Assembly (NCBI RefSeq): GCF_008330225.1
Contig: NZ_CP042466.1
Location: 310,001 to 374,000 of the forward strand
DNA length: 64,000 bases
From: Geobacter sp. FeAm09
GTDB lineage: Bacteria > Desulfobacterota > Desulfuromonadia > Geobacterales > Pseudopelobacteraceae
Reading direction: 5' to 3'
Shown here: positions 13,935-32,093 of the stretch, piece by piece
Numbering within the stretch: the first letter of the stretch is position 1
Layout: every line of letters begins with the position of its first letter
The notes under the pieces: model-generated
Seen by the model: the letters and a program-made list of their open reading frames with translations, nothing else
The model's database searches: none
What the model was told of the DNA's origin: nothing
Translations under genes and position numbers: made by a program

Positions 13935-14210
13935 ATGAATATCAGGGTTTCCGTCACGGTTTTCGGCCGCGTCCAGGGGGTGGCCTTTCGTCACTACACC
14001 AGCCGCCGCGCTGTGGAGCTTGGCGTCAGCGGTTGGGTCGGGAACCTGCCGGACGGCTCGGTTGCCGGTGTGTTCGAGGGCGATGAGAATGGGGTGAATG
14101 CCCTGGTTGAGTGGTGCCGTCAGGGGCCGCCCGCCGCCGCGGTGGAACGGCTCGACCTGCGCCGTGAGACCTGCACCGGGGAGTTCACGGGGTTCTCCAT
14201 CAGGTCGTGA
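13935..14210 (+). CDS. acyP: Acylphosphatase
   Basis: The 91-residue protein has both acylphosphatase signatures: [13 protein letters not shown], with the phosphate-binding Arg, and [11 protein letters not shown], with the catalytic Asn. It hydrolyses acyl phosphates such as acetyl phosphate or carbamoyl phosphate in the cytoplasm. The GGGGG-rich Shine-Dalgarno region lies 7-8 bases before the ATG at 13935. It is divergent from folE2 over a 54-bp gap and overlaps the end of engB tail-to-tail by 11 bp. Confidence 0.93.
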
Positions 14211-14799
14211 CGTTCTCCAGCCCCGCCGCTTCCGCGATCACCCGCCATATCCCCTCGCGCCCGGCCTTGGACAGGGCCGAGAAGGGGAGGAGATCCTCCC
14301 GGTTGCGGCCGATGGCCGCCGCGATCACCCCGGCCTGGCGGGCCTGTTCGTTCTTCGACAGCTTGTCGCACTTGGTCAGCACGATGATCGGCGGGATGCC
14401 GTAGGTTTCCAGCCAGCGCAGCATCTGCAGGTCCCCATCCGCGGGGGTGCGGCGGATATCCAGGATCAGGACCACCGCCCGCAGGTTCTCGCGCCTGGCC
14501 AGGTAGGTCTCGATCATCGGCTGCCACTGTTTGCGCAGCTCGGGCGGCGCCTTGGCGTAGCCGTAGCCGGGGAGGTCCACCAGGACCAGGCGGCCGTTGA
14601 CGTCGAAGAAGTTGATCAACTGGGTCCTGCCGGGGGTGGAACTGGTGCGCACCAGGCTTTTGCGGTTGACCAGCACATTGATCAGCGACGACTTACCCAC
14701 GTTGGAGCGGCCCACGAAGGCCACCTCGGGCAGGATAGTTTCCGGGTAGTCTTTCGGTTTTACAGCACTTTTTATGAATTCCGCCTGGTGTACATCCAT
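14200..14799 (-). CDS. engB: Ribosome-biogenesis GTPase EngB/YsxC
   Basis: This is a 199-residue TRAFAC-class GTPase with all G motifs: GRSNVGKSS (G1), TPGRTQ (G2), DLPGYGYA (G3), TKCDKL (G4) and SALS (G5). It is needed for 50S subunit maturation in model bacteria. The ATG at 14799 is preceded by GGAGAG at 7 bases and matches family N-termini; the upstream ATG would add 18 residues. It is divergent from nuoH across a 303-bp gap. Confidence 0.93.
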
Positions 14800-15102
14800 G
14801 TCAACGCTCTCCTTGGCGAGCGTATTATAGTGCGCCGCGTCATGGCTGTTCAAGCGCTTATTTCCCCCGTGCCGACAATTTGGAATTTATTCCCGCCTGC
14901 GCCCTCTCCTTTATGGGACGCCCGCGCCCGGCCCTCGGGCGCGAACCCGTGATGCGGCCATGCTCGGGCACTGTTTTTTCGACAGCTTCGGCCCGGAGAT
15001 TTAATTTTCCCCCCGGAATTAGTCGGTGGCGTTCGATACGCTTTTGTGCTATATGAATAGCATTCCGTTGGTGTCCTCTTACATGCTCCCGACCAGGTTC
15101 CA
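14800..15102. other. Intergenic gap between engB and nuoH
   Basis: This 303-bp divergent gap should hold promoters for both sides. I saw one GC-rich hairpin (CGCGCCCG, 14923-14930, with CGGGCGCG, 14936-14943) without a T tract, so it is not an obvious terminator. An AGGT ribosome-binding sequence precedes nuoH. No convincing gene or clean -35/-10 pair was found. Confidence 0.5.
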
Positions 15103-16107
15103 ATGACGGCATCCACTGTGGACATAGCGCTGTTTGCGGCAAAGCTGGGGATGATATTCTTCGTGATCCTCACCCTGGCCGCCTACTTGGTATTCGCCGA
15201 ACGGAAGGTCCTGGCCTGGATTCAGGATCGCAAGGGGCCCAATCGCGTCGGCCCCTTCGGACTTCTCCAACCCCTCGCAGACCTGATCAAACTCCTCACC
15301 AAAGAAGATTTTTGCCCGCTGGCCGCCGATAAATGGCTGTTCTATCTTGCCCCGGCCATGGCCGCTATTCCGGCGATCCTGACCTTTGCCGTCATCCCTT
15401 TCGGCGCGCCGGTGACCATTGCCGGCCGCCGGGTGCCGATGCTGGTGGCAGACCTGAACGTCGGTCTGCTGTTCTTCCTGGCGCTCTCCTCCATCGCGGT
15501 GTACGGGGTTGCCATCGGCGGCTGGGCCTCCAACTCCAAGTATTCCCTGCTGGGGGGCATCCGCGGCCTGGCCCAGTTGATCTCCTACGAACTCTCCATG
15601 GGGTTGTCCCTGGTGCCGGTGGTCATGCTGGCCCGTTCCTTCAGCCTGGCCGACATCGTGGCCGCCCAGTCCCCCATCCCGTTCATCGTCTACCAGCCCC
15701 TGGCCTTTCTCATCTTTCTGGTCAGCATCACGGCGGAGTGCAAGCGCATCCCCTTCGACATCCCCGAGGCCGAGGGGGAGCTGGTTGCCGGTTTCCACAC
15801 CGAATACTCCGGCATGCGCTTCGGCCTGTTCTTTGTGGGGGAATACATCAACATCATCGTGCTGGGAGGGCTGGCCACGACCTTCTTCCTGGGGGGCTGG
15901 CACGGTCCCTTCCTGGCGCCGGTGATCTGGTTCTCCCTCAAGACCCTGGCGTTTGCCTTTTTCTTCATCTGGATGCGCGGGACCCTGCCCCGCCTGCGTT
16001 ACGATCAGCTCATGCACCTGGGGTGGAAGGTCTTGACGCCCCTGGCCCTGGCGAATATCCTGGTCACCGGTTGGTGGCTGGCGCTGCGGGGGACGGTATT
16101 GCCATAA
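15103..16107 (+). CDS. nuoH: NADH-quinone oxidoreductase subunit H (complex I membrane arm)
   Basis: This is a 334-residue membrane protein with about eight TM helices. Family motifs include AERKVLAWIQDRKGPNRVGPFG near the N-terminus, the quinone-cavity loops ECKRIPFDIPEAEGELVAG and FHTEYSGMRFGLFFVGEY, and RGTLPRLRYDQLM near the C-terminus. NuoH links the quinone site to the proton-pumping arm. It opens a nuoH-ankyrin-nuoIJKLMN run. The usual upstream nuoA-G genes are replaced by the divergent engB, so the peripheral-arm subunits must be elsewhere or absent. Confidence 0.95.
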   Translation: MTASTVDIALFAAKLGMIFFVILTLAAYLVFAERKVLAWIQDRKGPNRVGPFGLLQPLADLIKLLTKEDFCPLAADKWLFYLAPAMAAIPAILTFAVIPFGAPVTIAGRRVPMLVADLNVGLLFFLALSSIAVYGVAIGGWASNSKYSLLGGIRGLAQLISYELSMGLSLVPVVMLARSFSLADIVAAQSPIPFIVYQPLAFLIFLVSITAECKRIPFDIPEAEGELVAGFHTEYSGMRFGLFFVGEYINIIVLGGLATTFFLGGWHGPFLAPVIWFSLKTLAFAFFFIWMRGTLPRLRYDQLMHLGWKVLTPLALANILVTGWWLALRGTVLP

Positions 16108-16162
16108 TGACGCTACGGACATCGACGTCCGGAACATAAACCAACCACGGGAGGAGTCGAAC

Positions 16163-16585
16163 ATGGAAAGTGTGAATGCCAAAGACCGTCACGGCCACAC
16201 CCCTCTGATCAATGCCGCGAAAGAGGGGCAGAAGGACTTTGTTCAGGACCTGCTGCACCGGGGCGCGGACTTGACCGCCAGCAGCGACAAAGGTAAAACG
16301 GCCCTCCACTACGCCGCCGCCAACGGCCACACCGAGATCGTCAGGATGCTGCTCGACAAGGGCGCCGACGTTGACGTCCGCGACCGGGAAGGGCATACTC
16401 CCCTGATGCTGGCCGCCATCTATGGCTGCAACCTGACCGTGCAGGCCCTGCTGGACGGCGGCGCCGATGCGGGGCTCAAGACGCCCACCGGCAACACCGC
16501 CAGCCGTTATGCCGACAACAACAGTCACCCCCTGGCCTCGGCACTGCTCAAGAAGGCCGAACGGGCCAAACACGGTAACGCATAA
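16163..16585 (+). CDS. Ankyrin-repeat protein inside the nuo operon
   Basis: The 140-residue protein is made almost entirely of four ankyrin repeats ([56 protein letters not shown]) with no signal peptide. It lies 55 bp after nuoH behind GGGAGGAG and is followed by a strong hairpin before nuoI. Ankyrin repeats mediate protein-protein contacts, so it could help assemble or regulate the complex, but nothing in the sequence proves that. An ankyrin gene is not a standard part of nuo operons. Confidence 0.88.
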
Positions 16586-16605
16586 TATTCCATAACTCCC
16601 GAGCC

Positions 16606-16635
16606 GAGACGCCCCGTCGGGGCGTCTCTCATTTT
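16606..16635 (+). terminator. Hairpin terminator/attenuator between ankyrin gene and nuoI
   Basis: A perfect 10-bp stem (GAGACGCCCC, 16606-16615, with 16619-16628) and a 3-base loop are followed by TCATTTT. It would reduce read-through from nuoH-ankyrin into nuoI, so nuoI-N may be expressed at a different level. The T tract is short, so partial attenuation is more likely than a full stop. Confidence 0.7.
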
Positions 16636-16650
16636 GAGAAGAACGATTTT

Positions 16651-17181
16651 ATGCCGATACTCTCCGACATACGAGCCATCCTGGGCGGTTTCCGTATCAC
16701 CCTGGCGCACATGCTGCGCCGGTCGGTCACCATCCAGTATCCCGAGGAAAAACGCACCCCGTACCCGCGTTACCGGGCGCGAATCGTGTTGACCCGCGAT
16801 CCGGACGGCGGCGAGCGCTGCGTGGCCTGCTACCTCTGCTCGGCGGCCTGCCCGGTGGACTGCATCTCCATGCAGGCCGCCGAAGGGGCGGATGGCCGCC
16901 GCTATGCCGCATGGTTCCGGATCAACTTCTCCCGCTGCATCTTCTGCGGCCTGTGCGCCGAGGCCTGCCCGACCCTGGCCATCCAGATGACCCCCGATTT
17001 CGAGATCTGCAAGCGGGACATCATGGACCTGGTCTATGAAAAGGAGGACCTGCTGATCAACGGCTGCGGCAAGGACGCTTCCTACAACTTCTACCGCCAC
17101 GCCGGCATCGCCGTGACCCAGCCCCGGGGCGAAGGGCTGGAGGAAGAGCGGCCGGTGGATGCCAGGTCGTTGCTGCCGTAG
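16651..17181 (+). CDS. nuoI: NADH-quinone oxidoreductase subunit I (2x[4Fe-4S])
   Basis: The 176-residue protein has two ferredoxin-type [4Fe-4S] motifs, [12 protein letters not shown] (about 57-68) and [12 protein letters not shown] (about 95-106). It carries electrons toward the quinone site at the junction of the peripheral and membrane arms. It is the only peripheral-type nuo subunit in this window. The normal NuoI N-terminal amphipathic region ([14 protein letters not shown]) is intact. A palindromic repeat separates it from nuoJ. Confidence 0.94.
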
Positions 17182-17186
17182 CGGCA

Positions 17187-17334
17187 AAGCATCCACCACG
17201 GAGGACACGGAGGGAAACCTGAGGAAAGCAAAAACCATTGTTACCAGCGATATATTGGGAACCGGTTTGTGAGTATGAATAAATATCTTCAGGTCTCCTC
17301 CGTGCTCCTCGGTGTCCTCCGTGGTGCATGCTTT
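17187..17334. repeat. Inverted-repeat intergenic element, family 1, copy A
   Basis: The left arm (AGCATCCACCACGGAGGACACGGAG, imperfect) and right arm (CTCCTCGGTGTCCTCCGTGGTGCATGCT) are inverted, with about 85 bases of unrelated DNA between. It fills the nuoI-nuoJ gap. Four more copies with the same arm theme are at 18228, 41432, 45219 and 63312. A transcript could fold into a long hairpin, possibly affecting mRNA processing between genes. Confidence 0.8.
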
Positions 17335-17353
17335 CAGGATTTTTAGAGAACTT

Positions 17354-17911
17354 ATGGAACAAATCATTTTCTACATATTGGCCGGGGTAGCCGTTATCGG
17401 CACGATCCTGGCCATTACCGAGAAACACCCGGTGCACGCCATCCTGTACCTGGTCACCTCCCTGTTCTCCATCGCGGTGATCTTTTACCTGCTGATGGCG
17501 CCGCTGGTGGCGGCCTTCGAGGTGATCCTCTACGCCGGCGCCATCATGGTGCTGTTCCTGTTCGTGATCATGATGCTCGATCTGGGGCACCCGGAAAAGG
17601 GGGTGGCGCCCCAGTGGCGCCAGTGGCTGCCGGCCCTGGTGCTGGCCGGGGTGAGTATCGCCTGCCTGACGGTCGTCATCGTCTCCCGCCATGCCTCCCC
17701 GGCCGCACCACCAGCCCCGGCCCTGCCGATCCGCGTGGTGGCCCGCTGCCTGTTCAAGGATCATGGCCTGGCGGTGGAGCTGATCTCGCTGCAACTGCTG
17801 TTTGCCTTGGTCGGCGCACTCTATCTGGGTCGGCAAGGTGCTCCCTCACCCGGCCTTCGGCCACCCTCTCCCCAGGGGAGAGGGGCTGGGGGGGAGGGGG
17901 GACCGTCATGA
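17354..17911 (+). CDS. nuoJ: NADH-quinone oxidoreductase subunit J with repeat-derived C-terminus
   Basis: The 185-residue membrane protein has five predicted TM helices. Family features include LAITEKHPVHAILYLVTSL and YAGAIMVLFLFVIMMLD. The last 22 or so residues (after YLGRQ) are Pro/Gly/Arg-rich and are encoded by a GC-rich palindromic repeat at 17841-17905, so the original stop was probably lost by repeat insertion. The core of the protein is unaffected. The stop overlaps the nuoK start (ATGA). Confidence 0.9.
   Translation: MEQIIFYILAGVAVIGTILAITEKHPVHAILYLVTSLFSIAVIFYLLMAPLVAAFEVILYAGAIMVLFLFVIMMLDLGHPEKGVAPQWRQWLPALVLAGVSIACLTVVIVSRHASPAAPPAPALPIRVVARCLFKDHGLAVELISLQLLFALVGALYLGRQGAPSPGLRPPSPQGRGAGGEGGPS
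17841..17905 (+). repeat. CTCACCC...CTCTCCCC-A-GGGGAGAG repeat forming the nuoJ tail and nuoK RBS
   Basis: This GC-rich unit contains two stacked hairpins, GGCC-TTC-GGCC (17852-17862) and CTCTCCCC-A-GGGGAGAG (17866-17882), then a purine tract GGGGGGGAGGGGGG. It is read as the last residues of NuoJ (PSPGLRPPSPQGRG type). The purine tract acts as the Shine-Dalgarno of nuoK. Similar sequences are common intergenic repeats in proteobacterial genomes, and their translation gives a characteristic spurious peptide. Confidence 0.75.
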
Positions 17912-18216
17912 TCGTTCCGCTGGGACATATCCTCATCCTGGCCGGCCTGCTCTTCTTCCTGGGGATGGGGGGGCTTCTGGCCTGGCGGGCCAATCTGATC
18001 ATGATGCTGGTCTGCATCGAGGTCATGCTGAATGCCGTCATGCTGGTCTTCGTGGGGGGCTCGGCCCGCTGGGGCACAGCGGACGGCCAACTGTTCGCCA
18101 TCTTCATCATGGCCCTCACCTCGGCCGAGGTCTCCCTGGCCCTGGCCATGGTGGTCTACCTGCACCGGCGGCGCAAGACCGTGGATACGGACCGGTTCGG
18201 CGAGATGAAGGGGTAA
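17908..18216 (+). CDS. nuoK: NADH-quinone oxidoreductase subunit K
   Basis: This is a 102-residue protein with three TM helices. The conserved membrane Glu residues lie in LVCIEVMLNAVML and LTSAEVSLALAMVV. It belongs to the Mrp/complex I proton-translocating module. The ATG at 17908 overlaps the nuoJ stop and is served by the GGGGAGGGGGG tract of the upstream repeat. The length is normal for the family (about 100). Confidence 0.95.
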   Translation: MIVPLGHILILAGLLFFLGMGGLLAWRANLIMMLVCIEVMLNAVMLVFVGGSARWGTADGQLFAIFIMALTSAEVSLALAMVVYLHRRRKTVDTDRFGEMKG

Positions 18217-18522
18217 CTATCCGGTGTAAAAGCATTCACCACGGAGGACACGGAGAAAAGGCGGAGGAAATCAGACTACACAGCGGACCTCAAAATCTTT
18301 TGTTTTGGTCTCCTCTGTGTACCTCCGTGTCCTCCGTGGTAATGCTTTGTGATGTCAGAAGTTTTTTTAAACCCATCGATTTCGATGGGTTAAGCACTGA
18401 TAAGGAAGGGTGGCGAGTCCGTATCTGAGTGCATACAGATGCTCAAAAGATTTACTATCGACGGGACAATGGCTATTCATACCAGCCTTGAAACATTGAG
18501 GATGTTTTAACCGAAAGAACCC
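18217..18522. other. nuoK-nuoL intergenic gap
   Basis: This 306-bp gap is unusually long for the middle of a nuo operon. The first part is family-1 repeat copy B (18228-18348). A second perfect hairpin follows (AACCCATCGA, 18370-18379, with TCGATGGGTT, 18382-18391); T residues precede it rather than follow, so it is not a plus-strand terminator. The rest (18392-18522) shows no gene. Confidence 0.6.
18228..18348. repeat. Inverted-repeat intergenic element, family 1, copy B
   Basis: The left arm AAAGCATTCACCACGGAGGACACGGAG and the right arm CTCCGTGTCCTCCGTGGTAATGCTTT (each shown with its flank) are near-perfect inverts over about 25 bp, with about 70 bases between. It is the best-matched pair of arms among the five copies and lies between nuoK and nuoL. 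Confidence 0.82.
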
Positions 18523-20403
18523 ATGAAACTTTACCTTGCCCTCATACTCCTTTTGCCGCTCATGGGCGGCCTCTGCAACGCCCTGCTGGGGCGGCTGCTG
18601 CCGCGTCGTGTGGGCGAGTCGGTGGCCTGCGGGGTGATCTGGGGGGCGTTCGCCTGCGCCGTAGTGGCGTTTGCCGGCTTCACCGGGCCGGTCAGGGTGG
18701 AATTGGGCTCCTGGCTGGCCGCATTCACCTTCCAGGCCCCCATCGCCCTGTACCTGGACCAGCTTTCCCTCAGCCTGACCCTGATGATCACCTTCGTGTG
18801 CGGCCTGATCCACCTCTACTCCGTGGGCTACCTGCAGGACGACCCGGCCTGGGCTCGCTACTTCGCCCTGCTGAATATCTTCGTTTTCGCCATGCTGACC
18901 CTGGTGCTGGCCGAGAACCTGCCGCTCCTCTACCTGGGGTGGGAGGGGGTCGGCTTCTGCTCCTACGCCCTGATCGGCTTCTGGTACACGGAGGAGAAGA
19001 ACGCCACCGCCGGGCGCAAGGCGTTCATCACCACCCGCATCGGCGACACCGCTTTCGGCATCGCCATCGTCTGGATGTACCAGCTCTCCGGCTCCGTCTC
19101 CATCACCCACCTGAACAGCATGGGCGCGCTGATCCCCGTCGCCGTCGTGACGACCATAGGCCTTTTGCTCCTGGCCGGGGCTGCCGGGAAGTCGGCCCAG
19201 GTGCCGCTGTCGGTCTGGCTGCCGGATGCCATGGCCGGCCCCACGCCGGTGTCGGCCCAGATCCACGCCGCCACCATGGTCACGGCCGGGGTTTACCTGC
19301 TGGCGCGCATGTTCCCCCTGATCGGCTCCTCGGAGACGGTGCGGGCCGCCATCGCCCTGACCGGCGGCGTCACCGCCTTCTATGCCGCCACCTGCGCCTG
19401 CACCCAACGGGACCTGAAACGCATTCTGGCCTACTCCACCATCAGCCAGATCGGCTACATGGTGCTCGGCGTGGGGGCCGGAGCCTTGACCGGCGCGACC
19501 TTCCACCTGCTGACCCACGCCTTCTTCAAGGCGCTCCTGTTCCTGGGGGCGGGATGCGTCATCACCGCCCTGCACCACCAGCAGGACATCTTCCGCATGG
19601 GTGGGCTCAGAGCAAAGCTAGCCGCGGTCTACTGGCCGTTTCTGGCCGGGGCGCTCTGCCTGGCCGGGTTTCCCCTGACCGGGGGCTTTTTCAGCAAGGA
19701 CGCCATCCTGGGTGGGTTGGCCGCCCAGGGCGGTCCCCTGTACGGCGGGCTGCTGCTCCTCGGCCTCCTTACGGCGCTTCTGACCTCCTTCTACACCTTC
19801 CGCATGGTCTTCGTGGTCTTTCATGGTGGGGAAGAGGCCCACATCGGCCCCCTCCCGCGGGTCATGACCCTGACCCTCATTCCCCTGGCCCTGCTCGGCC
19901 TGTGCGGCGGCCTGTTCAACCTGCCCGCCTACCTGGGCCATCAGGGGGTTCTGGACGGCTTCCTTGGTTCGATCCCCGGTTTTAGGGGTGTTGAGCAGAC
20001 CCCCCATGCCGACGAGATCGCCCTGCAGATCGTCGCCGCCACCTTGAGCCTCACGGGTCTGGGCCTGGCCTGGTCCCGCTACACCGGCAGCCGCCGGGCC
20101 GCCGCCCTGGCCCGCGAGGACGCCGGCCGGCCGGGTGCCCGGTTCCTGCTGAACGGCTGGTACCTGGACAGCCTCTATTGGTCGCTGGTCGTCAACCCGT
20201 TCAACCACCTGGCGCGTTTCCTCTGGAAACGGTGGGACGAGGCGGGTATCGACGGCACCCTGGACGGCCTGGCCCGCCTTACCGCCCGCCTGGGCGGCCT
20301 GCCCGCCGCCTGGAGCACCGGCCGGGTGGCCACCTCCCTGTTCGGCCTGGCGGCCGGGGTCTGCGTAGTGCTCGCCTACCTTGTGTGGGTGGTGCTGCCA
20401 TGA
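18523..20403 (+). CDS. nuoL: NADH-quinone oxidoreductase subunit L (antiporter-like)
   Basis: This is a 626-residue, about 16-TM antiporter-type subunit. Family motifs include LYLGWEGVGFCSYALIGFW (key Glu), AGKSAQVPLSVWLPDAMAGPTPVSA, LKRILAYSTISQIGYM and the long lateral C-terminal helix region (about 540-626). It is the distal proton pump of complex I. Its stop overlaps the nuoM start by four bases. The residues that form the pumping path are intact. Confidence 0.95.
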   Translation: MKLYLALILLLPLMGGLCNALLGRLLPRRVGESVACGVIWGAFACAVVAFAGFTGPVRVELGSWLAAFTFQAPIALYLDQLSLSLTLMITFVCGLIHLYSVGYLQDDPAWARYFALLNIFVFAMLTLVLAENLPLLYLGWEGVGFCSYALIGFWYTEEKNATAGRKAFITTRIGDTAFGIAIVWMYQLSGSVSITHLNSMGALIPVAVVTTIGLLLLAGAAGKSAQVPLSVWLPDAMAGPTPVSAQIHAATMVTAGVYLLARMFPLIGSSETVRAAIALTGGVTAFYAATCACTQRDLKRILAYSTISQIGYMVLGVGAGALTGATFHLLTHAFFKALLFLGAGCVITALHHQQDIFRMGGLRAKLAAVYWPFLAGALCLAGFPLTGGFFSKDAILGGLAAQGGPLYGGLLLLGLLTALLTSFYTFRMVFVVFHGGEEAHIGPLPRVMTLTLIPLALLGLCGGLFNLPAYLGHQGVLDGFLGSIPGFRGVEQTPHADEIALQIVAATLSLTGLGLAWSRYTGSRRAAALAREDAGRPGARFLLNGWYLDSLYWSLVVNPFNHLARFLWKRWDEAGIDGTLDGLARLTARLGGLPAAWSTGRVATSLFGLAAGVCVVLAYLVWVVLP

Positions 20404-21893
20404 TGGCCGATCTGCATCTTTTGACCATCCTGGTCTTCTTCCCCCTGGCGGGCTGCCTGCTGATGCTGCCGGTCTGGAAGCGTCCTGCGGCTGCGCGGCC
20501 TCTGGCCCTGGGGGTGATGACCGGAGAACTGTTGCTGGCGCTCTGGCTGTACGCCTCGTGGCACGGGCTGGCGGCGCTGCACCCGGCTTTGCCCGGTTAC
20601 CTGCTGGTGGAGGACGCCCCCTGGATCAGGGACTTCGGCATCCGCTACACCCTGGGGCTGGACGGCATCTCGCTGCTCATGGTCATGCTGACCGCCTTCA
20701 GCTTCTGCGTGGCCCTGGCGGTGTCGTGGCGGGCCGTGGGCGAGAAGGTCGGCCTGTTCCTGGCGCTGCTTTTGGCCATGGAAACCGGCATCATGGGGGT
20801 CTTTCTGGCCCTGGACCTGGCACTGTTCTACCTGTTCTGGGAGGTGATGCTGATCCCCATGTTCTTCCTGATCGGCATCTGGGGCCATGGGCGGCGCATC
20901 TACTCCACGGTCAAGTTCTTCCTCTTCACCATGTTCGGCTCGCTCCTCATGCTCCTGGCGATCATCGCCCTGCACCTGCTCCATGCCCAAAAGAGCGGCG
21001 TTGCCACCTTCGGGCTGCACGAGCTTATCGCAACCCCCCTGCCGGCCGGTACCCAGCTCTGGCTGTTCGGCGCCTTTTTCCTGGCCTTTGCCATCAAGTT
21101 CCCCCTCTTCCCCCTGCACACCTGGCTGCCGGACGCCCATACCGACGCCCCCACCGCGGGGAGCGTGATCCTGGCCGGGCTGCTGCTCAAGACCGGCAGC
21201 TACGGCCTGCTCCGCTTCGGCTACCCGCTCTTCCCCCAGGCGGCCCATACGTTGACCCCCCTGTTCTATACCCTGGCCATCGCCGGCATCGTCTACGCCT
21301 CGCTGGTGGCCTTTGCCCAGGAGGACATGAAACGCCTCATCGCCTACTCCAGCATCGGCCACATGGGGTACGTGGCCATCGGCATCGCCGCCTGGCAACC
21401 GGTGGCCCTGTCCGGCTCCATCGTCCAGATGGCCAACCACGGCGTGACCACCGGCGCCCTGTTCGCCATGGTGGGCATGCTGGACGAACGGGCGCACACC
21501 CGGGAGATCGGCGCCTTCGGCGGACTATGGGGCAAGATCCCGCTCTGGTCGTTCTTCTTCCTGCTCTTCTCCATGGCCTCGGCCGGCCTGCCGGGGCTGA
21601 ACAACTTCGTGGGCGAGTTCCTGGTGCTGTCCGGCACCTTCACCAAGTCGCCCCTGGCGGCGGGACTGGCCTTCACCGGCATCGTCCTGACCCTGGTCTA
21701 CACCGTGCGCCTGGTGCAGGAGGTGATCTTTCAGACGGAACGCACGCCCTTGCCGCTGGCGGACCTGGAGCGCCGTGAAATCTGCCTTCTGGCCGTGCTG
21801 GCCCTGCTGGTGGTCTGGATGGGCGTGCACCCGGCGCCGCTGCTGGATCTGATCCACGGGCCGGTGCAACTCCTGACCGGGGGTGCGCCGTGA
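20400..21893 (+). CDS. nuoM: NADH-quinone oxidoreductase subunit M (antiporter-like)
   Basis: This is a 497-residue, about 14-TM antiporter-like proton pump. It contains LFYLFWEVMLIPMFFLIGIWG (key Glu), KFPLFPLHTWLPDAHTDAPTAGS and MKRLIAYSSIGHMGY. The ATG at 20400 overlaps the nuoL stop; the next codon is also ATG. The stop overlaps the nuoN GTG start. The length is typical for NuoM. Confidence 0.95.
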   Translation: MMADLHLLTILVFFPLAGCLLMLPVWKRPAAARPLALGVMTGELLLALWLYASWHGLAALHPALPGYLLVEDAPWIRDFGIRYTLGLDGISLLMVMLTAFSFCVALAVSWRAVGEKVGLFLALLLAMETGIMGVFLALDLALFYLFWEVMLIPMFFLIGIWGHGRRIYSTVKFFLFTMFGSLLMLLAIIALHLLHAQKSGVATFGLHELIATPLPAGTQLWLFGAFFLAFAIKFPLFPLHTWLPDAHTDAPTAGSVILAGLLLKTGSYGLLRFGYPLFPQAAHTLTPLFYTLAIAGIVYASLVAFAQEDMKRLIAYSSIGHMGYVAIGIAAWQPVALSGSIVQMANHGVTTGALFAMVGMLDERAHTREIGAFGGLWGKIPLWSFFFLLFSMASAGLPGLNNFVGEFLVLSGTFTKSPLAAGLAFTGIVLTLVYTVRLVQEVIFQTERTPLPLADLERREICLLAVLALLVVWMGVHPAPLLDLIHGPVQLLTGGAP

Positions 21894-23293
21894 CAAATGC
21901 CGACCTGATGGCACTCATGCCTTTGATCATCCCGGCCCTCGGCAGCGTGCTGGTACTGCTCATTGGCGCGGTACGCCCCGGCGGCTACCTGTACGGGGTG
22001 GCCGGGGCGCTGGTTGCGGCTTCCCTGCTGTGGGCCCTGTGCCTCCCGGCCAGCGCCCTCATGCCGGGTCTTGCCGTCACCCCCTTCTCCCGGTTCTTCG
22101 TTCTGTTCCTCGGCGGCACCTGCCTGGTGGCCCTGCTGCTGGCCGCCGGCTACAACAAACGGCGCGGCATCGTGGGGGAGGAGTACCCGGCAACGCTGCT
22201 CTTCGCCCTGGCCGGCATGGGGGCGGCCTGCGCCGCCACCGACCTGTTGATGCTGTTCCTCGGTCTGGAGGCCTTTACCTTTGCCTTCTACATCCTGGTG
22301 GCCGTGGAACGGGATTCGCCCCGGGGGGGCGAGGCGGGGCTGAAGTACCTGCTCAACGGCACCCTGGCGGCGGCCGTTCTGGCCATGGGGATCGCCCTGG
22401 TCTATTGCAGCCGCGGCACGCTCAAGCTGGCCGAACTGGCCCTGCAACCGGCCGCGCCCGAGCCGCTGTTCCTGGCCGGCGTCTGCATGATCCTTCTGGG
22501 GGTGGCCTTCAAGCTCTCCTTCGTCCCCGCCCATCTCTGGACCCCGGACGTATACCAGGGAGCCCCGGCCCCGGTGACGGCGCTCCTCTCCACCGCCTCC
22601 AAGGGGGCCTCGGCGGCGGCCCTGTTCCTCGTGCTACCGCTGGCCGCCGCATGGCGCGGCGGTCACGACATCCTCTGGTGCCTGGCGCTCGCCACTATGG
22701 CCTGCGGCAATCTGGCGGCCCTGGTGCAGACCAGCATCAAGCGCCTGCTGGCGTGGTCGTCCGTGGCCCAGATGGGGTATGTGGCCCTGGCTTTTGTGGC
22801 CCTGCCCGCCGGTGGGGCGCGGGCCGCGCTCTTCTACATGGTGGCTTACGGGGCGGCCGGACTGGCCTCCTTCGGCGCCGTGTCCGTCCTGTCCGATGGC
22901 TCGGACCGGGATGCCATCGAGCAATACCGCGGCCTGGGCTACCGCAATCCCCTGGCCGGTGCGGCCCTGGCCGTGGCGCTGTTCTCCCTGGCCGGGATCC
23001 CCCCGGCGGCCGGGTTCATGGCCAAGTTCGCGGTCTTCAGCGCCGCGCTGCGGGCCGGCGAAACCGCCCTGGCCGTGGCCGGCGTCCTCATGGCGCTCGT
23101 GGGGGTCTTCTTCTACCTGCGAGTGGTGGTTGCCCTTTATATGCGGCCTGCCGACGGAGGGGAAGCGCCGGTACGCCCCCTGTCCCTCTCCGAGGGCCTG
23201 GCACTGGCCCTCCCCACCGCCGCCATCCTCTTCCTTGGGCTCTATCCTTCCCCGCTGCTGGATCTGCTGGCCCATATCGTGAAATTTCCGTGA
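21890..23293 (+). CDS. nuoN: NADH-quinone oxidoreductase subunit N (antiporter-like)
   Basis: This is a 467-residue, about 14-TM protein, third of the antiporter-like subunits. Motifs are LLMLFLGLEAFTFAFYILV (key Glu), KLSFVPAHLWTPDVYQGAPAPVTA and IKRLLAWSSVAQMGY. It starts with GTG at 21890, overlapping the nuoM stop by four bases. It closes the nuo gene run; the frameshifted M48 protease gene begins 13 bp later. Confidence 0.95.
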   Translation: MTNADLMALMPLIIPALGSVLVLLIGAVRPGGYLYGVAGALVAASLLWALCLPASALMPGLAVTPFSRFFVLFLGGTCLVALLLAAGYNKRRGIVGEEYPATLLFALAGMGAACAATDLLMLFLGLEAFTFAFYILVAVERDSPRGGEAGLKYLLNGTLAAAVLAMGIALVYCSRGTLKLAELALQPAAPEPLFLAGVCMILLGVAFKLSFVPAHLWTPDVYQGAPAPVTALLSTASKGASAAALFLVLPLAAAWRGGHDILWCLALATMACGNLAALVQTSIKRLLAWSSVAQMGYVALAFVALPAGGARAALFYMVAYGAAGLASFGAVSVLSDGSDRDAIEQYRGLGYRNPLAGAALAVALFSLAGIPPAAGFMAKFAVFSAALRAGETALAVAGVLMALVGVFFYLRVVVALYMRPADGGEAPVRPLSLSEGLALALPTAAILFLGLYPSPLLDLLAHIVKFP

Positions 23294-23306: not shown

Positions 23307-24103
23307 ATGCCCGGACGAATTGCGGCAATATTCTGCCTGGCCTTTGCCCTGGCCGCGTGCAGCACCGTTCCCATCACCGGGCGCTCGCAGCTCAACCTGA
23401 TCCCCGGTTCGTCCATGATCTCCATGAGCCTGCAAGAGTACGATCAGTTCCTGAAGGAGCACAAGGTCAGCACCAACCAGGAACAGACCGGGATGGTCAA
23501 ACGGGTGGGGGCACGGGTCCAGGACGCGGTGGAACGATATTTTGTCGCCAGCGGCCTGAGCGGGCATCTGGCCAGCTATAAATGGGAGTTCAACCTGGTG
23601 GAGGACAAACAGGTCAATGCCTGGTGCATGCCGGGCGGGAAGGTGGTTGTTTATACCGGCATCCTGCCGGTCGCCCGGGGGATGCGGGGCTGGCCGTGGT
23701 GATGGGGCATGAGATCGCCCATGCCATTGCGGAGCACGGCAACGAACGCATGAGCCAGGGGTTGATCACGCAACTGGGCGGAGTGGCGCTCTCCACAGCG
23801 CTTTCCACGAAGTCGGCCGCCACGCGGCAACTCTGGATGTCGGTGTACGGCGTCGGGGCCCAATACGGGGCCATCCTCCCCTACAGCAGATTGCAGGAGA
23901 GCGAGGCCGACCACCTGGGTCTGATCTTCATGGCCATGGCCGGTTACGACCCCAATGAGGCGGTTGTCTTCTGGCGGCGCATGGCCGCGCAGAAGGCGGG
24001 CCAGGCCCCCCCGGAGTTCCTCAGCACCCATCCGTCCGATGCCACCCGGGTCGCGGAGCTGGAACGCCTGATGCCGGAGGCCATGTCATACTACCGCAAA
24101 TGA
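23307..24103 (+). CDS. M48-family lipoprotein protease, frameshifted
   Basis: The 5' part (23307-23702) encodes a lipoprotein signal with lipobox LAAC and continues to GGKVVVYTGILPVARG. The 3' part in the next frame resumes DAGLAVVMGHEIAHAIAEHGNERM, with zinc site HEIAH and third ligand in LQESEADHLGL. The break falls in a G run at 23677-23681; one extra G restores a 265-residue protein. The total span is 797 bp, one short of a multiple of three. The family acts on periplasmic or outer-membrane proteins. A sequence error is more likely than a real pseudogene. It follows nuoN by 13 bp with GAGGAGG as RBS. Confidence 0.85.
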
Positions 24104-26879: not shown

Positions 26880-27284
26880 GGCCATATCCTTCCGTTGCGT
26901 GGGGTGCTTCTGCCACCTTTTTATAGCACAGAAAGGTGCAAAGGTGAAACTGCTTGAAACCTGCGCCCGTGACGCCGGAATGCCGCAGTGGCTGGAAGAG
27001 CCGGTGCCCGGCCGCCGCAAACCGCTTATCATGCCGGTCCTCCGCCGTCCGGCTCGGTTGTCTCCACGACAACGGGGGAGAGGTCTTCCGGGCAAACGGG
27101 GGGGGTAGGCAGGCGTCACGGACGCGGGTGAAAGGCAAGGGGAGGCAAAGATTTTTTTCCCTTGATTTCTGGAACATTATTATGCTACTCATGCATACTG
27201 TATACACTTTATTTGTGTAGATTTAAACAATAATTGCAGCAGCTTAACACCTTGGTTCCCAGGGGCCGGTTTTCGGAGGTTCGA
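26880..27284. other. Divergent gap between aminopeptidase and sfrB
   Basis: This 405-bp gap has no credible gene. The part next to sfrB (27150-27230) is markedly AT-rich compared with its surroundings and probably contains the sfrBA promoter, including an alternating ATGCATACTGTATACA stretch. I could not assign a confident -35/-10 or -24/-12 pair. The part at 26930-27110 is GC-rich with no clear structure. Confidence 0.55.
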
Positions 27285-29305
27285 GTGTCTTCAGTACTCT
27301 TTTCCACATGGGGCAGGAACGTCGTTGACAACAGGAATGTTTCCGGTGAACCGCAGTCGGTCGCCTTCAAGCTGCCGGCGGCCTTTGACGGCGAACGTCC
27401 GTTGCGCGCGTTCATGGGGTGGGATGGTCTCATTCTGTTCGACAGGACAGTGGACGTGCCGGCCATGACGGCCGAGTACATGAAGCGCGTCCAGACCCTG
27501 TACTGCTGCGGCAAGTGCACACCGGGCAAGAAAGGCACCAAGGTGCTGATGGACCTGCTCAAGGGGGTGCTGGACGGTACGGCGCAGGAGAACGACCTGG
27601 ACAAGGTCGGCGACCTGACGGAACTGCTCAAAAATTGCAAGTGCACCCTCTGTCAGAGCGCCACGGTCCCGGTCTTCGATGCGGTGCAGCACTACCGCGC
27701 CGATTTCGTCGCCCGCCTCCACGAGCGGCGCGCGGTCAACAGCGCCGATGCGTACCTCCACAAGATCACCGCCCCCTGCATGGACAAATGCCCGTCCCAT
27801 ATCGACATCCCCAAATATATCGAGGATATCAAGAATCTCCGTTTTTCCGATTCCCTGGCCACCATCCGCGAGAACATGCCGCTTCCAGCCGTCTGCGGGC
27901 GGGTCTGCCCGCACCCCTGCGAGAGCGCCTGCCGCCGCAAGAACGTGGACGATGCCATCAATATCATGGTGCTGAAACGGTCGGCCTCGGATTACGAGCG
28001 GCTGCACAAGCTGGCGCCTCCCATGCGGCCCAAGGCGCGGAAGAACAAGACGGTCGGCATCGTGGGCGCCGGCCCGGCCGGCCTGGCCGCCGCCTATTAC
28101 CTGGCCCTGGAAGGGTACCCCTGCACCATCTACGAGGCGCTGCCGGAAGGGTACGGGGGCGGCATGATCGCGGTCGGCATCCCGGCGTACCGCATGCCGC
28201 GCACGATCCTGCAGCGCGACATCGATATCATCCAGTCCCTGGGGGTCGAGATCGTCTACAACTGCCGCGTCGGCACGGACATCTCCCTGGCGGACCTGAA
28301 GAAGAAACATGACTCGGTGTTCATCGCCCCCGGCGCCCACCGTTCCAAACCCATGGGGGTGGAAGGGGAGGACAAGGGGTACAAGGGCTTTCTCAAGGGG
28401 GGGATCGACTTCCTGCGCGAGGCCTACATGGGCAAGCCGACCGGCATGGGCGGGAAGGTCGTGGTGGTCGGGGGGGCAATACCGCCATCGACTGCGTCCG
28501 GGTGGCCCTGCGCGAGGGTGCCCAGGACTCCTACCTGGTCTACCGCCGCTCCCGCAAGGAGATGCCGGCCGATGTGTGGGAGGTGGATGGTGCCGACGAG
28601 GAGGGGGTCACGTTCGAGTTCCAGGTGCTCCCCACCCGGATCATCGCCAACGACCAGCACGAGGTGATCGGCGTGGAGTGCGTCCGCATGGAGTTGGGAG
28701 AGCCCGACGCCTCCGGTCGCCGTCGCCCCGAACCGATGGCGGGCAGCGAGTTCGTCATCGAGTGCGACACGGTCATCCCGGCCATCGGCCAGGACGCCGA
28801 CCTGGGGTTCATCCCGCCCGACATGGGGATCGACATCAGCAAGTGGAACACGGTGGTAACCAGGCATCTGCCCCTCAAGGATGCGGCCGGAAAGGACCTC
28901 AAGGACGGCATGGGCAACCCGCTTTCCCGCTCCCTCATGACCGACTGCGACGGGGTCTTTGCCGGCGGCGACGCCGAGATCGGCCCCCTGACCGTGGTGG
29001 CCTGCGTGGGCAACGCCCATCGCGCCGCCCGGGTGATCCAGCGCTGGCTGGAGGAAGGCAAGGCCTATCTCACCGAGGACGACATCTTCGACGACCTCCT
29101 GACCTATCTGGGGGTGTACGACAAGGGAGAGAAGGTCGCCTGGCTCGATGCCGCAGGGCGTGCCAATCAGAAAGAGGTCCACGGCAAAGAGCGGGCCGGC
29201 CTCAAAAACTACAACGAGGTCGAACTCGGCTTCAGCGACAGCACGGCCCAGGCCGAGGCCGACCGGTGCCTGCGCTGCTACCGCATGGCCATGGCGGTGG
29301 TCTAA
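27285..29305 (+). CDS. sfrB: SfrB-like NADPH oxidoreductase beta subunit, frameshifted
   Basis: The GTG at 27285 has CGGAGG 5 bases upstream. The N-terminal 160 residues include CCGKCTPGKKGT and CKCTLC, matching the C-terminal [4Fe-4S] region of NuoF. A GltD-type module follows: Cys motifs (CMDKCPSHIDIPKYI, CGRVCPHPCESAC), then FAD-binding GIVGAGPAGLAAAYYLA and NADPH-binding VVVVGGGNTAIDC after frame repair. The break is in a seven-G run at 28470-28476; adding one G gives 673 residues. Geobacter SfrAB is a soluble NADPH:Fe(III) oxidoreductase that probably works as an NADPH dehydrogenase. It precedes sfrA. Confidence 0.86.
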
Positions 29306-29306
29306 C

Positions 29307-29427
29307 AGGTTGTTGAAAAACAGCCATCTCGCCGCCGTCCTCGAAAGCCCCTTTGTGCGGCGTAGCGTTGCTACGCCTCCGCGGGGCTTCCTGCTGGTGC
29401 GACGATCTGACTATTTTTGAACAACCT
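29307..29427. repeat. 121-bp palindromic (MITE-like) element, copy 1
   Basis: The element is bounded by 14-bp terminal inverted repeats (AGGTTGTTGAAAAA ... TTTTTGAACAACCT, one mismatch). It has a central hairpin CGTAGC-GTT-GCTACG (29361-29375). It begins 2 bp after the sfrB stop. Copy 2 at 32100 has the same length and is closely similar. It has no coding capacity and I see no target-site duplication. Confidence 0.88.
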
Positions 29428-29495
29428 GGGTTTCCTCCGGTATCCCGGCAGGTGTGAACTCTTATATTAATCGCATTCAAACTTTGGAGTTGTGT

Positions 29496-32093
29496 ATGGT
29501 TACGCTGACGATTGACGGCAGGCAGATACAGGCCCCCGCGGGGACGACTATCCTGGATGCGGCCGCCGAGCTGGGGATCAAAATTCCCACGCTCTGCTGG
29601 CTGAAGAAGGTTTCCACCACCGGGGCCTGCCGCATCTGCGTGGTGGAGATCGAGGGGGTTGACCGGTTCATGACCGCCTGTAACACCCCGGTCAAGGAAG
29701 GCATCGTTGTCACCACCACGTCGCCGAAGCTGGAGAAGGCCCGCCAGAAGACGCTGGAGCTGATGCTGGTCAACCACCCCTTGGACTGCCCGGTGTGCGA
29801 TGCCGGGGGCGAATGCGACCTGCAGGACACCTGCTTTGCCCTCAAGGTGGACCGGAACGAGTACGCCGCCGAGCGGGAACCGCTCCCCATCATCTACGAC
29901 TGGCCCCTGATCGAGAATTGCTCCACCCGCTGCATCCTGTGCGAGAAGTGCGTCAAGGTCTGCCACGAGATCGTGGGGGCCGACGCCATCGAGGTCAAGA
30001 ACTGCGGCGACCGCTCCCTGATCGGCACCGTGGACGGGAAGCCGCTCAATTGCGATTTCTGCGGCAACTGCATCAACGCCTGCCCCACCGGCACGCTCAT
30101 CAGCAAGCCCTTCAAATTCCGCGGCCGCCCCTGGACCTTCGACGTGACCAAAAGCGTCTGTGCCTTCTGCTCCTCCGGTTGCCAGATCGAATACCATTCC
30201 CGCGATGGCCGTGTGGAGCGGGTCACCAGTTCCGACGACGGCTTCAACCGCGGCAACCTTTGCGTCAACGGCCGTTTCGGCTATGCCGCCTTCAACTCCT
30301 CCGGCAGGTTGACCGAGCCGCTCCTCAGGGACAGCGCCGGCAAACAGCAGGAGACCGTTTGGGACCAGGCCTTGGGTACGGTGGCGGCCCGGCTGAAGGA
30401 TATCGTCTCCGAGAGCGGCGGGGCCAGCGTGGCCGGTATCGGGTCGCCCCGGGCAACCAACGAGGAGAGCTATCTCTTCCAGAAGTTCCTGCGTGCCGCC
30501 GTGGGTACCAACAACATCGACTCCGAGGCGCGCCTCGGCTATTTCCCGGCCCAGCTCATCCAGTGGCGGATGCTGGGCTACAGCGGCGGGACCACCGCCA
30601 TGGACGCCATCGAGCAGGCCACGGCGGTCGTGGTCCTGGGGAGCGACCTCAAGGCCGAATCGGCCGGTTTCGCCTACCGGACGATCCAGGCCGCCACCAA
30701 AAACGACGCCCGGCTGGTCGTGGCCGGTGCGCGCGCCAGTTGGCTCACGCCGTTCGCCAACGCGTTTCTCCACTATCGTCCCGGCGGCGAAGCTTGGCTG
30801 GTGGCGGGCCTCAACAAGGCCATCCTGGCGGAAGGGCTTGAAAACAAGACATTCATCGACACCCATACCACGGAGTTCGCCGCGTTCACTGCGGCCCTCG
30901 ACGGGATTTCCTTCGAGCGGATCGACGAGGCGAGCGGCGTGGGCGAGGCAGAGCTGCGCGAAGCGGCCCGCCTCATCGGCGCCAACGGCCGCGTGGCCGT
31001 CATCTACGGCGCCGGGATCATGCGTGCCGCCGATGCCGCCGCTGCGGTGACCGGCGTGGTCAACCTGGCGCTGGTGACCGGGGCGGCCGGCACGGACGGG
31101 GCCGGCATCTACCCTCTGGACGAGAAGAACAATACCCAGGGGATGCTGGATATGGGGGTCTGCCCCGAGTATCTGCCCGGCTATCACGGCTACGACCATG
31201 CCGCCGCCCGTTTCGGCGCGGAGTGGAAAGCCACCGTTCCCGGCACGGCCGGCAAGGATCTCTTCCAGATCGTCGAGGGGATCGAAAAGGGCGAAATACG
31301 CGCGTTGTACGTCATGGGGAGCGACCCGCTGCACTTCATGCCGGACCGCGGCCGCATCCTGAAGGCCCTGCAGAAGCTGGACCTGCTGGTGGTGCAGGAC
31401 CTGTTCCTGACCGACACCGCCCGTCTGGCCCACGTCGTGCTGCCCGCCGCCAGCGGGGCCGAGAAGTCCGGTTCCTTCACCACCGTGGACAACCGGGTAC
31501 AGTGCTTCCCCCGGGCCGTGGCCCCGGCCGGCGAAGCCCGCACCGACGGCGAGATTTTGGCGAAGCTGTACGACTTGGTGGCGCCCGTAACCAATATCGC
31601 GGCCGTGTCGGCGGAAGAGCTGCACCACGAGATCGCCCGGCTGACCGGTCTCTACAGTGAGCAGTGCGATCACGAAGGGTGCCGCATGGGGCGGGTCAAG
31701 AACCGTCCGGCTTTCAGCGGCCAGCCGGCAACCTTTGGGCCGGTGACGCCCGCCCCCCCGGTCCGGCGGGATGGGGCCCACCCCCTGAACCTGATCATCG
31801 GACCGGTGCTGCACCATAACGGCACCTTCTCCACCTGGTCGGACAACAACATGGCCGTTGCCGGAGAGGCGTATGTGGAGGTGGCATCCCCGGACGCGCA
31901 CAAGGCCGGCGTCGTCACCGGAAACGTGGTGAAGATCTCCTCGCCCCGGGGGAGCATCATCCTCACGGCCAGGGTCCTTGACGAAGCCCCGGAGGGCACG
32001 CTGTTCGTCCCGTCCCATTTCAGGGAGGCCCAGGTGAACCTGTTGACCCAGGGAGCGGGCGCCACGGTGGGGGTCAAGCTGGAAAAGGCCTGA
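29496..32093 (+). CDS. sfrA: SfrA-like NADPH oxidoreductase alpha subunit (NuoG-like, Fe-S/molybdopterin fold)
   Basis: The 865-residue protein has a NuoG/formate-dehydrogenase-like layout. A [2Fe-2S] domain (about 1-80) contains CWLKKVSTTGACRICVVE. The His-Cys cluster is HPLDCPVCDAGGECDLQD (about 90-107). Two [4Fe-4S] motifs follow, CSTRCILCEKCVKVC and CDFCGNCINACP. A further cluster motif (CAFCSSGCQIEY) opens the molybdopterin-oxidoreductase fold to the C-terminus. With sfrB it should form the soluble NADPH-linked reductase described in Geobacter. The ATG at 29496 is preceded by TTTGGAG. The molybdopterin fold does not prove a bound cofactor. Confidence 0.88.
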   Translation: MVTLTIDGRQIQAPAGTTILDAAAELGIKIPTLCWLKKVSTTGACRICVVEIEGVDRFMTACNTPVKEGIVVTTTSPKLEKARQKTLELMLVNHPLDCPVCDAGGECDLQDTCFALKVDRNEYAAEREPLPIIYDWPLIENCSTRCILCEKCVKVCHEIVGADAIEVKNCGDRSLIGTVDGKPLNCDFCGNCINACPTGTLISKPFKFRGRPWTFDVTKSVCAFCSSGCQIEYHSRDGRVERVTSSDDGFNRGNLCVNGRFGYAAFNSSGRLTEPLLRDSAGKQQETVWDQALGTVAARLKDIVSESGGASVAGIGSPRATNEESYLFQKFLRAAVGTNNIDSEARLGYFPAQLIQWRMLGYSGGTTAMDAIEQATAVVVLGSDLKAESAGFAYRTIQAATKNDARLVVAGARASWLTPFANAFLHYRPGGEAWLVAGLNKAILAEGLENKTFIDTHTTEFAAFTAALDGISFERIDEASGVGEAELREAARLIGANGRVAVIYGAGIMRAADAAAAVTGVVNLALVTGAAGTDGAGIYPLDEKNNTQGMLDMGVCPEYLPGYHGYDHAAARFGAEWKATVPGTAGKDLFQIVEGIEKGEIRALYVMGSDPLHFMPDRGRILKALQKLDLLVVQDLFLTDTARLAHVVLPAASGAEKSGSFTTVDNRVQCFPRAVAPAGEARTDGEILAKLYDLVAPVTNIAAVSAEELHHEIARLTGLYSEQCDHEGCRMGRVKNRPAFSGQPATFGPVTPAPPVRRDGAHPLNLIIGPVLHHNGTFSTWSDNNMAVAGEAYVEVASPDAHKAGVVTGNVVKISSPRGSIILTARVLDEAPEGTLFVPSHFREAQVNLLTQGAGATVGVKLEKA

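Follow-up and report, generated by a model that had tools for sequence, protein, structure and literature searches.

We analysed a 64,000-nucleotide stretch of the Geobacter sp. FeAm09 genome (hereafter the window), which corresponds to positions 310001-374000 of an assembly made up of one contig of 4,099,068 bases, and in particular its genes at window positions 15103-23293, which encode subunits of complex I. Seven genes, nuoH to nuoN, lie there on the forward strand with a divergent engB upstream; family matches agree in this with a preliminary description of the window made from the sequence alone. The standard gene order given in that description holds for the succession of nuoH and nuoI to nuoN, but an ankyrin-repeat open reading frame (ORF) is interposed between the first two. 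The features are as follows (window coordinates):

14200-14853, reverse strand: engB (YihA/YsxC GTPase; TIGR03598), divergent, upstream of nuoH, the clade's usual flank at the nuoH-N site
15103-16107, forward strand: nuoH; PF00146, 420.7 bits; NF004741, 361.5 bits against a cut-off of 305; aligns with solved NuoH chains
16163-16585, forward strand: ankyrin-repeat ORF of 140 amino acids (aa) between nuoH and nuoI; PF12796, E = 2.6e-31
16651-17181, forward strand: nuoI; NF004536, 282.8 bits against a cut-off of 212; two 4Fe-4S sites
17354-17911, forward strand: nuoJ; PF00499, E = 4.8e-34; under the NCBIfam cut-offs
17908-18216, forward strand: nuoK; PF00420, E = 1.4e-21
18523-20403, forward strand: nuoL; NF005141, 629 bits against a cut-off of 556; aligns with NuoL chain 3rko_L
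20400-21893, forward strand: nuoM; PF00361; aligns with NuoM chain 7p61_M
21890-23293, forward strand: nuoN; PF00361; aligns with NuoN chain 8e9g_N

Best family E-values across these nuo genes ranged from 1.4e-21 (NuoK) to 1.1e-188 (NuoL), so chance is not an issue for the calls. The preliminary description had noted that no nuoA-G genes occur in the 64 kilobases (kb), and had offered a split operon, a second incomplete copy or a complex fed by a donor other than NuoEFG as explanations. For the window itself the absence stood: genome matches to PF01058 (NuoB), PF00346 (NuoD) and PF01512 (NuoF) all fell outside 310001-374000, nuoA, nuoC, nuoE and nuoG not being searched singly, although proteins related to NuoF and NuoG are encoded at 27234-32093. 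Beyond the window it did not stand, and both partner clusters are present in the genome. Family searches of the whole genome returned two NuoH, two NuoD, four NuoF-type and seven NuoB-type matches (one of them under the cut-off), along with six NuoL/M/N-type matches. Because there are two NuoH, two NuoD and six NuoL/M/N-type genes, the genome carries two complex I sets, here called Nuo-1 and Nuo-2, the window genes belonging to the second. Outside the window the two sets comprise (genome coordinates):

681430-681843: nuoA of Nuo-2; PF00507; beside nuoBCD
678906-681335: nuoBCD fusion of Nuo-2, 809 aa; NF009808, 1529.5 bits against a cut-off of 1156; holds the second NuoD
1331729 down to 1327397: nuoE, nuoF, an ORF of the PD-(D/E)XK nuclease family and nuoG of Nuo-2; NuoE, NuoF and NuoG each pass a model cut-off
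about 3280173-3295400, reverse strand: Nuo-1, a contiguous nuoA-N

All Nuo-2 core subunits A-N are encoded in the genome, at three separate loci (A and BCD; E, F and G; H-N in the window) separated by distances of 354 kb, 651 kb and 1005 kb on the contig. The split operon suggested earlier was right, in three pieces (nuoA-BCD, nuoE-F-G and nuoH-N). The window set is also a second copy, the other nuoH-N set having been found within the contiguous Nuo-1 at ~3.28 Mb, but it is not incomplete; dedicated partner clusters for nuoA-G, which had been named beforehand as the finding that would make this set merely split, are present elsewhere in the genome.

The cluster order in relatives is A-BCD-E-F-G-H-(ankyrin)-I-J-K-L-M-N, with the whole set forming one cluster, for example, in Geomonas anaerohicana, whose locus is one of five analysed out of 80 named loci. 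In the order's other families, NuoBCD-2 and NuoH-2 lay on one contig and no more than 13.7 kb apart in 47 of 54 genomes with both markers, and on different contigs in the remaining seven. Within the window's family (76 genomes), all three markers (NuoBCD, NuoH and NuoF) were detected in 38 genomes, none in 30 and a part of them in eight, counts which include some partial matches; the corresponding numbers among genomes at least 90% complete (n = 59) were 32, 24 and three. The set was contiguous in ten of the 38 genomes and non-contiguous in 28. In three of the latter (G000, G052 and G056) a single contig carries the three pieces, all widely separated; three more have two pieces over 20 kb apart on one contig. 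The breaks in the window's clade fall at BCD|E and G|H, i.e. on both sides of nuoEFG, the NADH (reduced nicotinamide adenine dinucleotide) module. A random pair of breaks would flank nuoEFG in about 1 in 55 cases (11 possible junctions), a weak observation that was noticed post hoc.

A tree of NuoH plus NuoI (67 rows from 68 labelled loci, G129 being omitted as its contig ends at nuoH) was built by quick search with Shimodaira-Hasegawa-like approximate likelihood ratio test (SH-aLRT) support, no bootstrap, and a midpoint root for drawing only. All 30 split loci formed one clade in it (30/30, SH-aLRT 99, one change), and in 27 of them engB was located no more than 5 kb from nuoH. Flanks of the other two pieces were shared as well in most of the genomes inspected. 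Among seven genomes inspected for nuoA-BCD, murA, hisG and hisD were near in G000, G054, G055 and G056, while G050 and G052 resembled G000 in other flanking genes, among them a kinase and a regulator. At the third site, nuoE adjoins hemW in eight of nine genomes inspected (G000, G050, G052, G054, G056, G006, G012 and G037), five of which carry cbiX and cobH on the other side of nuoEFG. Names of engB, folE2, murA, hisG, hisD, hemW, cobH and cbiD were assigned by family models, those of mqnD, cbiX, DUF507, DUF4337 and M48 by our own reading. The three-way split apparently arose once in the window's lineage, as judged from these sequence comparisons: the ancestral Nuo-2 was very probably one cluster, which was split a single time, at BCD|E and at G|H, in the ancestor of the clade, and the three pieces have mostly stayed at the same three sites since then.

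All Nuo-2 parts have open frames throughout and are under purifying selection. In comparisons of the window's genome with four others, the ratio of non-synonymous to synonymous differences (pN/pS) of the ankyrin gene and of every Nuo-2 part lay in the range 0.055-0.372, and that of engB in the range 0.152-0.287. The NADH/flavin mononucleotide (FMN) module is present with its iron-sulphur (Fe-S) sites: NuoE, NuoF and NuoG match their models, NuoE by model only, and the NADH/FMN and Fe-S regions of NuoF-2 align with solved NuoF and NuoG. NuoL, NuoM and NuoN likewise align with solved chains of antiporter-like subunits, and the Glu and Lys residues conserved in such subunits were identified by visual inspection for NuoL and NuoM only. 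Best solved matches of NuoF, NuoG, NuoL, NuoM and NuoCD were Escherichia coli-type chains, whereas NuoH and NuoN matched 8e9g chains best. A supplementary figure legend in a proteomics paper on G. sulfurreducens lists both NuoBCD and NuoI-2 (PMC7894505).

The region 15103-23293 thus very probably supplies NuoI and the membrane arm to a second complex I that is complete, an ordinary NADH:quinone oxidoreductase whose operon has been dispersed; purifying selection, the structure matches and the listing of NuoBCD and NuoI-2 make a normal enzyme of this type the best reading. The products of the three loci would be expected to assemble into one enzyme that oxidises NADH and pumps protons. NADH would be oxidised at NuoEF, electrons would then pass through the Fe-S chain of NuoG, NuoI and NuoB to reach quinone at the NuoB/D/H junction, and protons would be moved by NuoH and NuoJ-N.

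Several observations weigh against this interpretation. For 22 of the 28 genomes with a non-contiguous set, the pieces are on different draft contigs, which alone is no proof of separation, and nuoA, nuoE and nuoG were located via their neighbourhood rather than by genome-wide searches of their own. G010, G012 and G037 lack engB within 5 kb of nuoH and are exceptions to the conserved site, and no nuoM-N followed nuoL in the sequence covered for G012 and G037. No murA, hisG or hisD stands beside nuoA-BCD in G001, and G003 has a lone nuoF-2, the surrounding 12 kb containing no nuoE, nuoG, hemW or cbiX. NuoE/F/G-2 might, in addition, work with a different partner.

Among the alternatives, an 11-subunit complex I (NuoA-D and NuoH-N) without an NADH module, fed by ferredoxin or another donor in the manner of Fpo/NDH-1-like enzymes, is very unlikely. 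It would suit the lack of nuoE-G adjoining nuoH or nuoBCD in this genome, but the same ancestral operon has left a nuoE-F-G cluster at 1327397-1331729, and NuoF-2 nearly always accompanies the other two pieces (all three in 38 genomes, a part of them in eight). NuoF-2 is, moreover, under purifying selection, with NADH/FMN and Fe-S regions aligning with solved NuoF and NuoG. The discovery of nuoE-F-G-2 and its evident co-inheritance led us to reject an alternative electron donor, and the earlier suggestion of a donor other than NuoEFG is unsupported, the cluster at 1.33 Mb having normal motifs. A membrane-bound group 4 hydrogenase, whose catalytic large subunit would be of hydrogenase type rather than NuoD, is not what was found either, as protein P0001 passes the NuoB/C/D and NuoD cut-offs.

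More doubtful still is the idea that nuoH-N is a decaying duplicate, or that its products are only alternative membrane subunits of Nuo-1. Such a view could draw on the contiguous Nuo-1 and on the 30 of 76 family genomes without any of the three Nuo-2 markers; open frames in all parts, the low pN/pS range, the joint persistence of A, BCD, E, F and G orthologues and the appearance of Nuo-2 products in the G. sulfurreducens figure legend speak against it. Equally hard to credit is an ancestral split state from which contiguous clusters were assembled later. In its favour one might cite a contiguous ankyrin-free version that is present in the same family and has apparently been transferred between families, but nuoG directly precedes nuoH in other families (18 such tree rows carry the ankyrin gene at the H-I position) and the 30 split loci form one clade in the tree, its midpoint root being for drawing only.

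That ankyrin-free version bears on how the dispersed Nuo-2 has fared within the family. The ankyrin gene was present in 132 of 141 genomes of the order and in 71 of 76 in the window's family, where it stood beside nuoH at the split site in 30 genomes, beside engB without nuoH in 29 and beside efp, without engB in the stretch, in eight; the other four were not inspected. Seventeen of the 29 engB-ankyrin genomes had no Nuo-2 marker at all and 12 had the contiguous ankyrin-free version, two of these only partly assembled. In the tree this version includes G088 (family f3; only G-N seen on its contig) inside the f1 group with a support of 97. The native split set thus appears to have been lost in some lineages and a contiguous one gained, and the ankyrin gene beside engB without nuoH-N seems to be a footprint by which the loss and replacement of genes can be traced. 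The draft of G055 carries both split and contiguous ankyrin-free Nuo-2, which is either contamination (4%) or gene gain. The loss picture is less clear at the nuoEFG site than at the ankyrin site: among 18 family genomes without the split set, hemW directly adjoined cbiX in four, and neither nuoE nor cbiX was found within the 4.1-kb loci of the other 14, while nuoE adjoined hemW in 4/4 split genomes and neither nuoE nor cbiX was found in 6/6 outgroup genomes.

Retention of the ankyrin gene in genomes missing Nuo-2 weakens the possibility that its protein is a subunit of Nuo-2 only. A broader proposal, to which we give little credence, is that the protein is a dedicated complex I accessory throughout the order, acting in membrane-arm assembly or in docking of that arm to the peripheral arm, on Nuo-2 and, in genomes that have lost it, on Nuo-1, and that a separate locus for the N-module would let NADH input be set independently of the membrane arm.

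It is already known that the genes of complex I can be spread over two or more loci. PMC2330069 gives both G. sulfurreducens complex I clusters as nuoABCDEFGHIJKLMN and describes two clusters, nuoEFJKLMN and nuoIHGDBA, in myxobacteria, and a survey of split versus single-cluster complex I reports that both types are mixed in the majority of clades (PMC12361115). The window's genome resembles myxobacteria and other bacteria with split complex I in having its genes at more than one locus, and differs from the myxobacterial split in that there are three loci and the breaks flank nuoEFG. Compared with the Nuo-2 of Geobacter and Geomonas, it has the same genes, including a fused NuoBCD (NF009808), and Geomonas anaerohicana has a related ankyrin gene (56% identity) in the gap from nuoH to nuoI, but there Nuo-2 is one contiguous cluster as opposed to three loci. 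E. coli complex I provides the best solved matches for NuoF, G, L, M and CD; relative to it, BCD rather than CD is fused, NuoG has 653 aa against 908 and the genes are dispersed. Neither this three-way split nor the ankyrin gene was described in the literature searched, which covered few subscription journals, and the one-time split together with an ankyrin gene staying beside engB without nuoH-N is mildly new. An 'incomplete' complex I set can be completed from distant loci, and claims about donors made from gene neighbourhood alone can therefore mislead. The window's clade is a natural setting in which to test how complex I assembles when its genes are divided among three clusters.

The NuoF/NuoG-related proteins at 27234-32093, ~4 kb downstream of nuoN, are presumably SfrB and SfrA. 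The first combines the NuoF Fe-S domain PF10589 with pyridine-nucleotide oxidoreductase parts, and the second, of 879 aa, is NuoG/formate-dehydrogenase-like. Both were rejected as the missing NuoF/G since the genome has NuoE/F/G orthologues that derive from the ancestral operon; in addition, the score of the 879-aa protein is under the NuoG model cut-off (439.6 against 470). The SfrB-like gene (27234-29305) is frameshifted in a G run at about 28.47 kb and an M48 peptidase-like gene (23307-24103) in another at about 23.68 kb, related loci lacking the shift in both cases; the latter looks like a sequencing slip. The nuoG of Nuo-1 also shifts frame near its N-terminus in this assembly (genome position about 3.290 Mb), and murA near nuoA-BCD is cut into two ORFs; the assembly may contain many such slips.

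A block of ~70 bases upstream of nuoH (about 15035-15095), strongly conserved in the five genomes of the genus that were aligned, is perhaps a promoter or leader. It was not found ahead of nuoA or nuoE, and no promoter motif common to all three pieces was seen by eye (nuoA and nuoE upstream regions of three genomes each). Two copies of an imperfect inverted repeat occupy the nuoI/nuoJ gap (17186-17334) and the nuoK/nuoL gap (18229-18340). The small PD-(D/E)XK nuclease-family ORF between nuoF and nuoG (1329515-1329757; PF13366) has relatives at the same place in G011 and G095.

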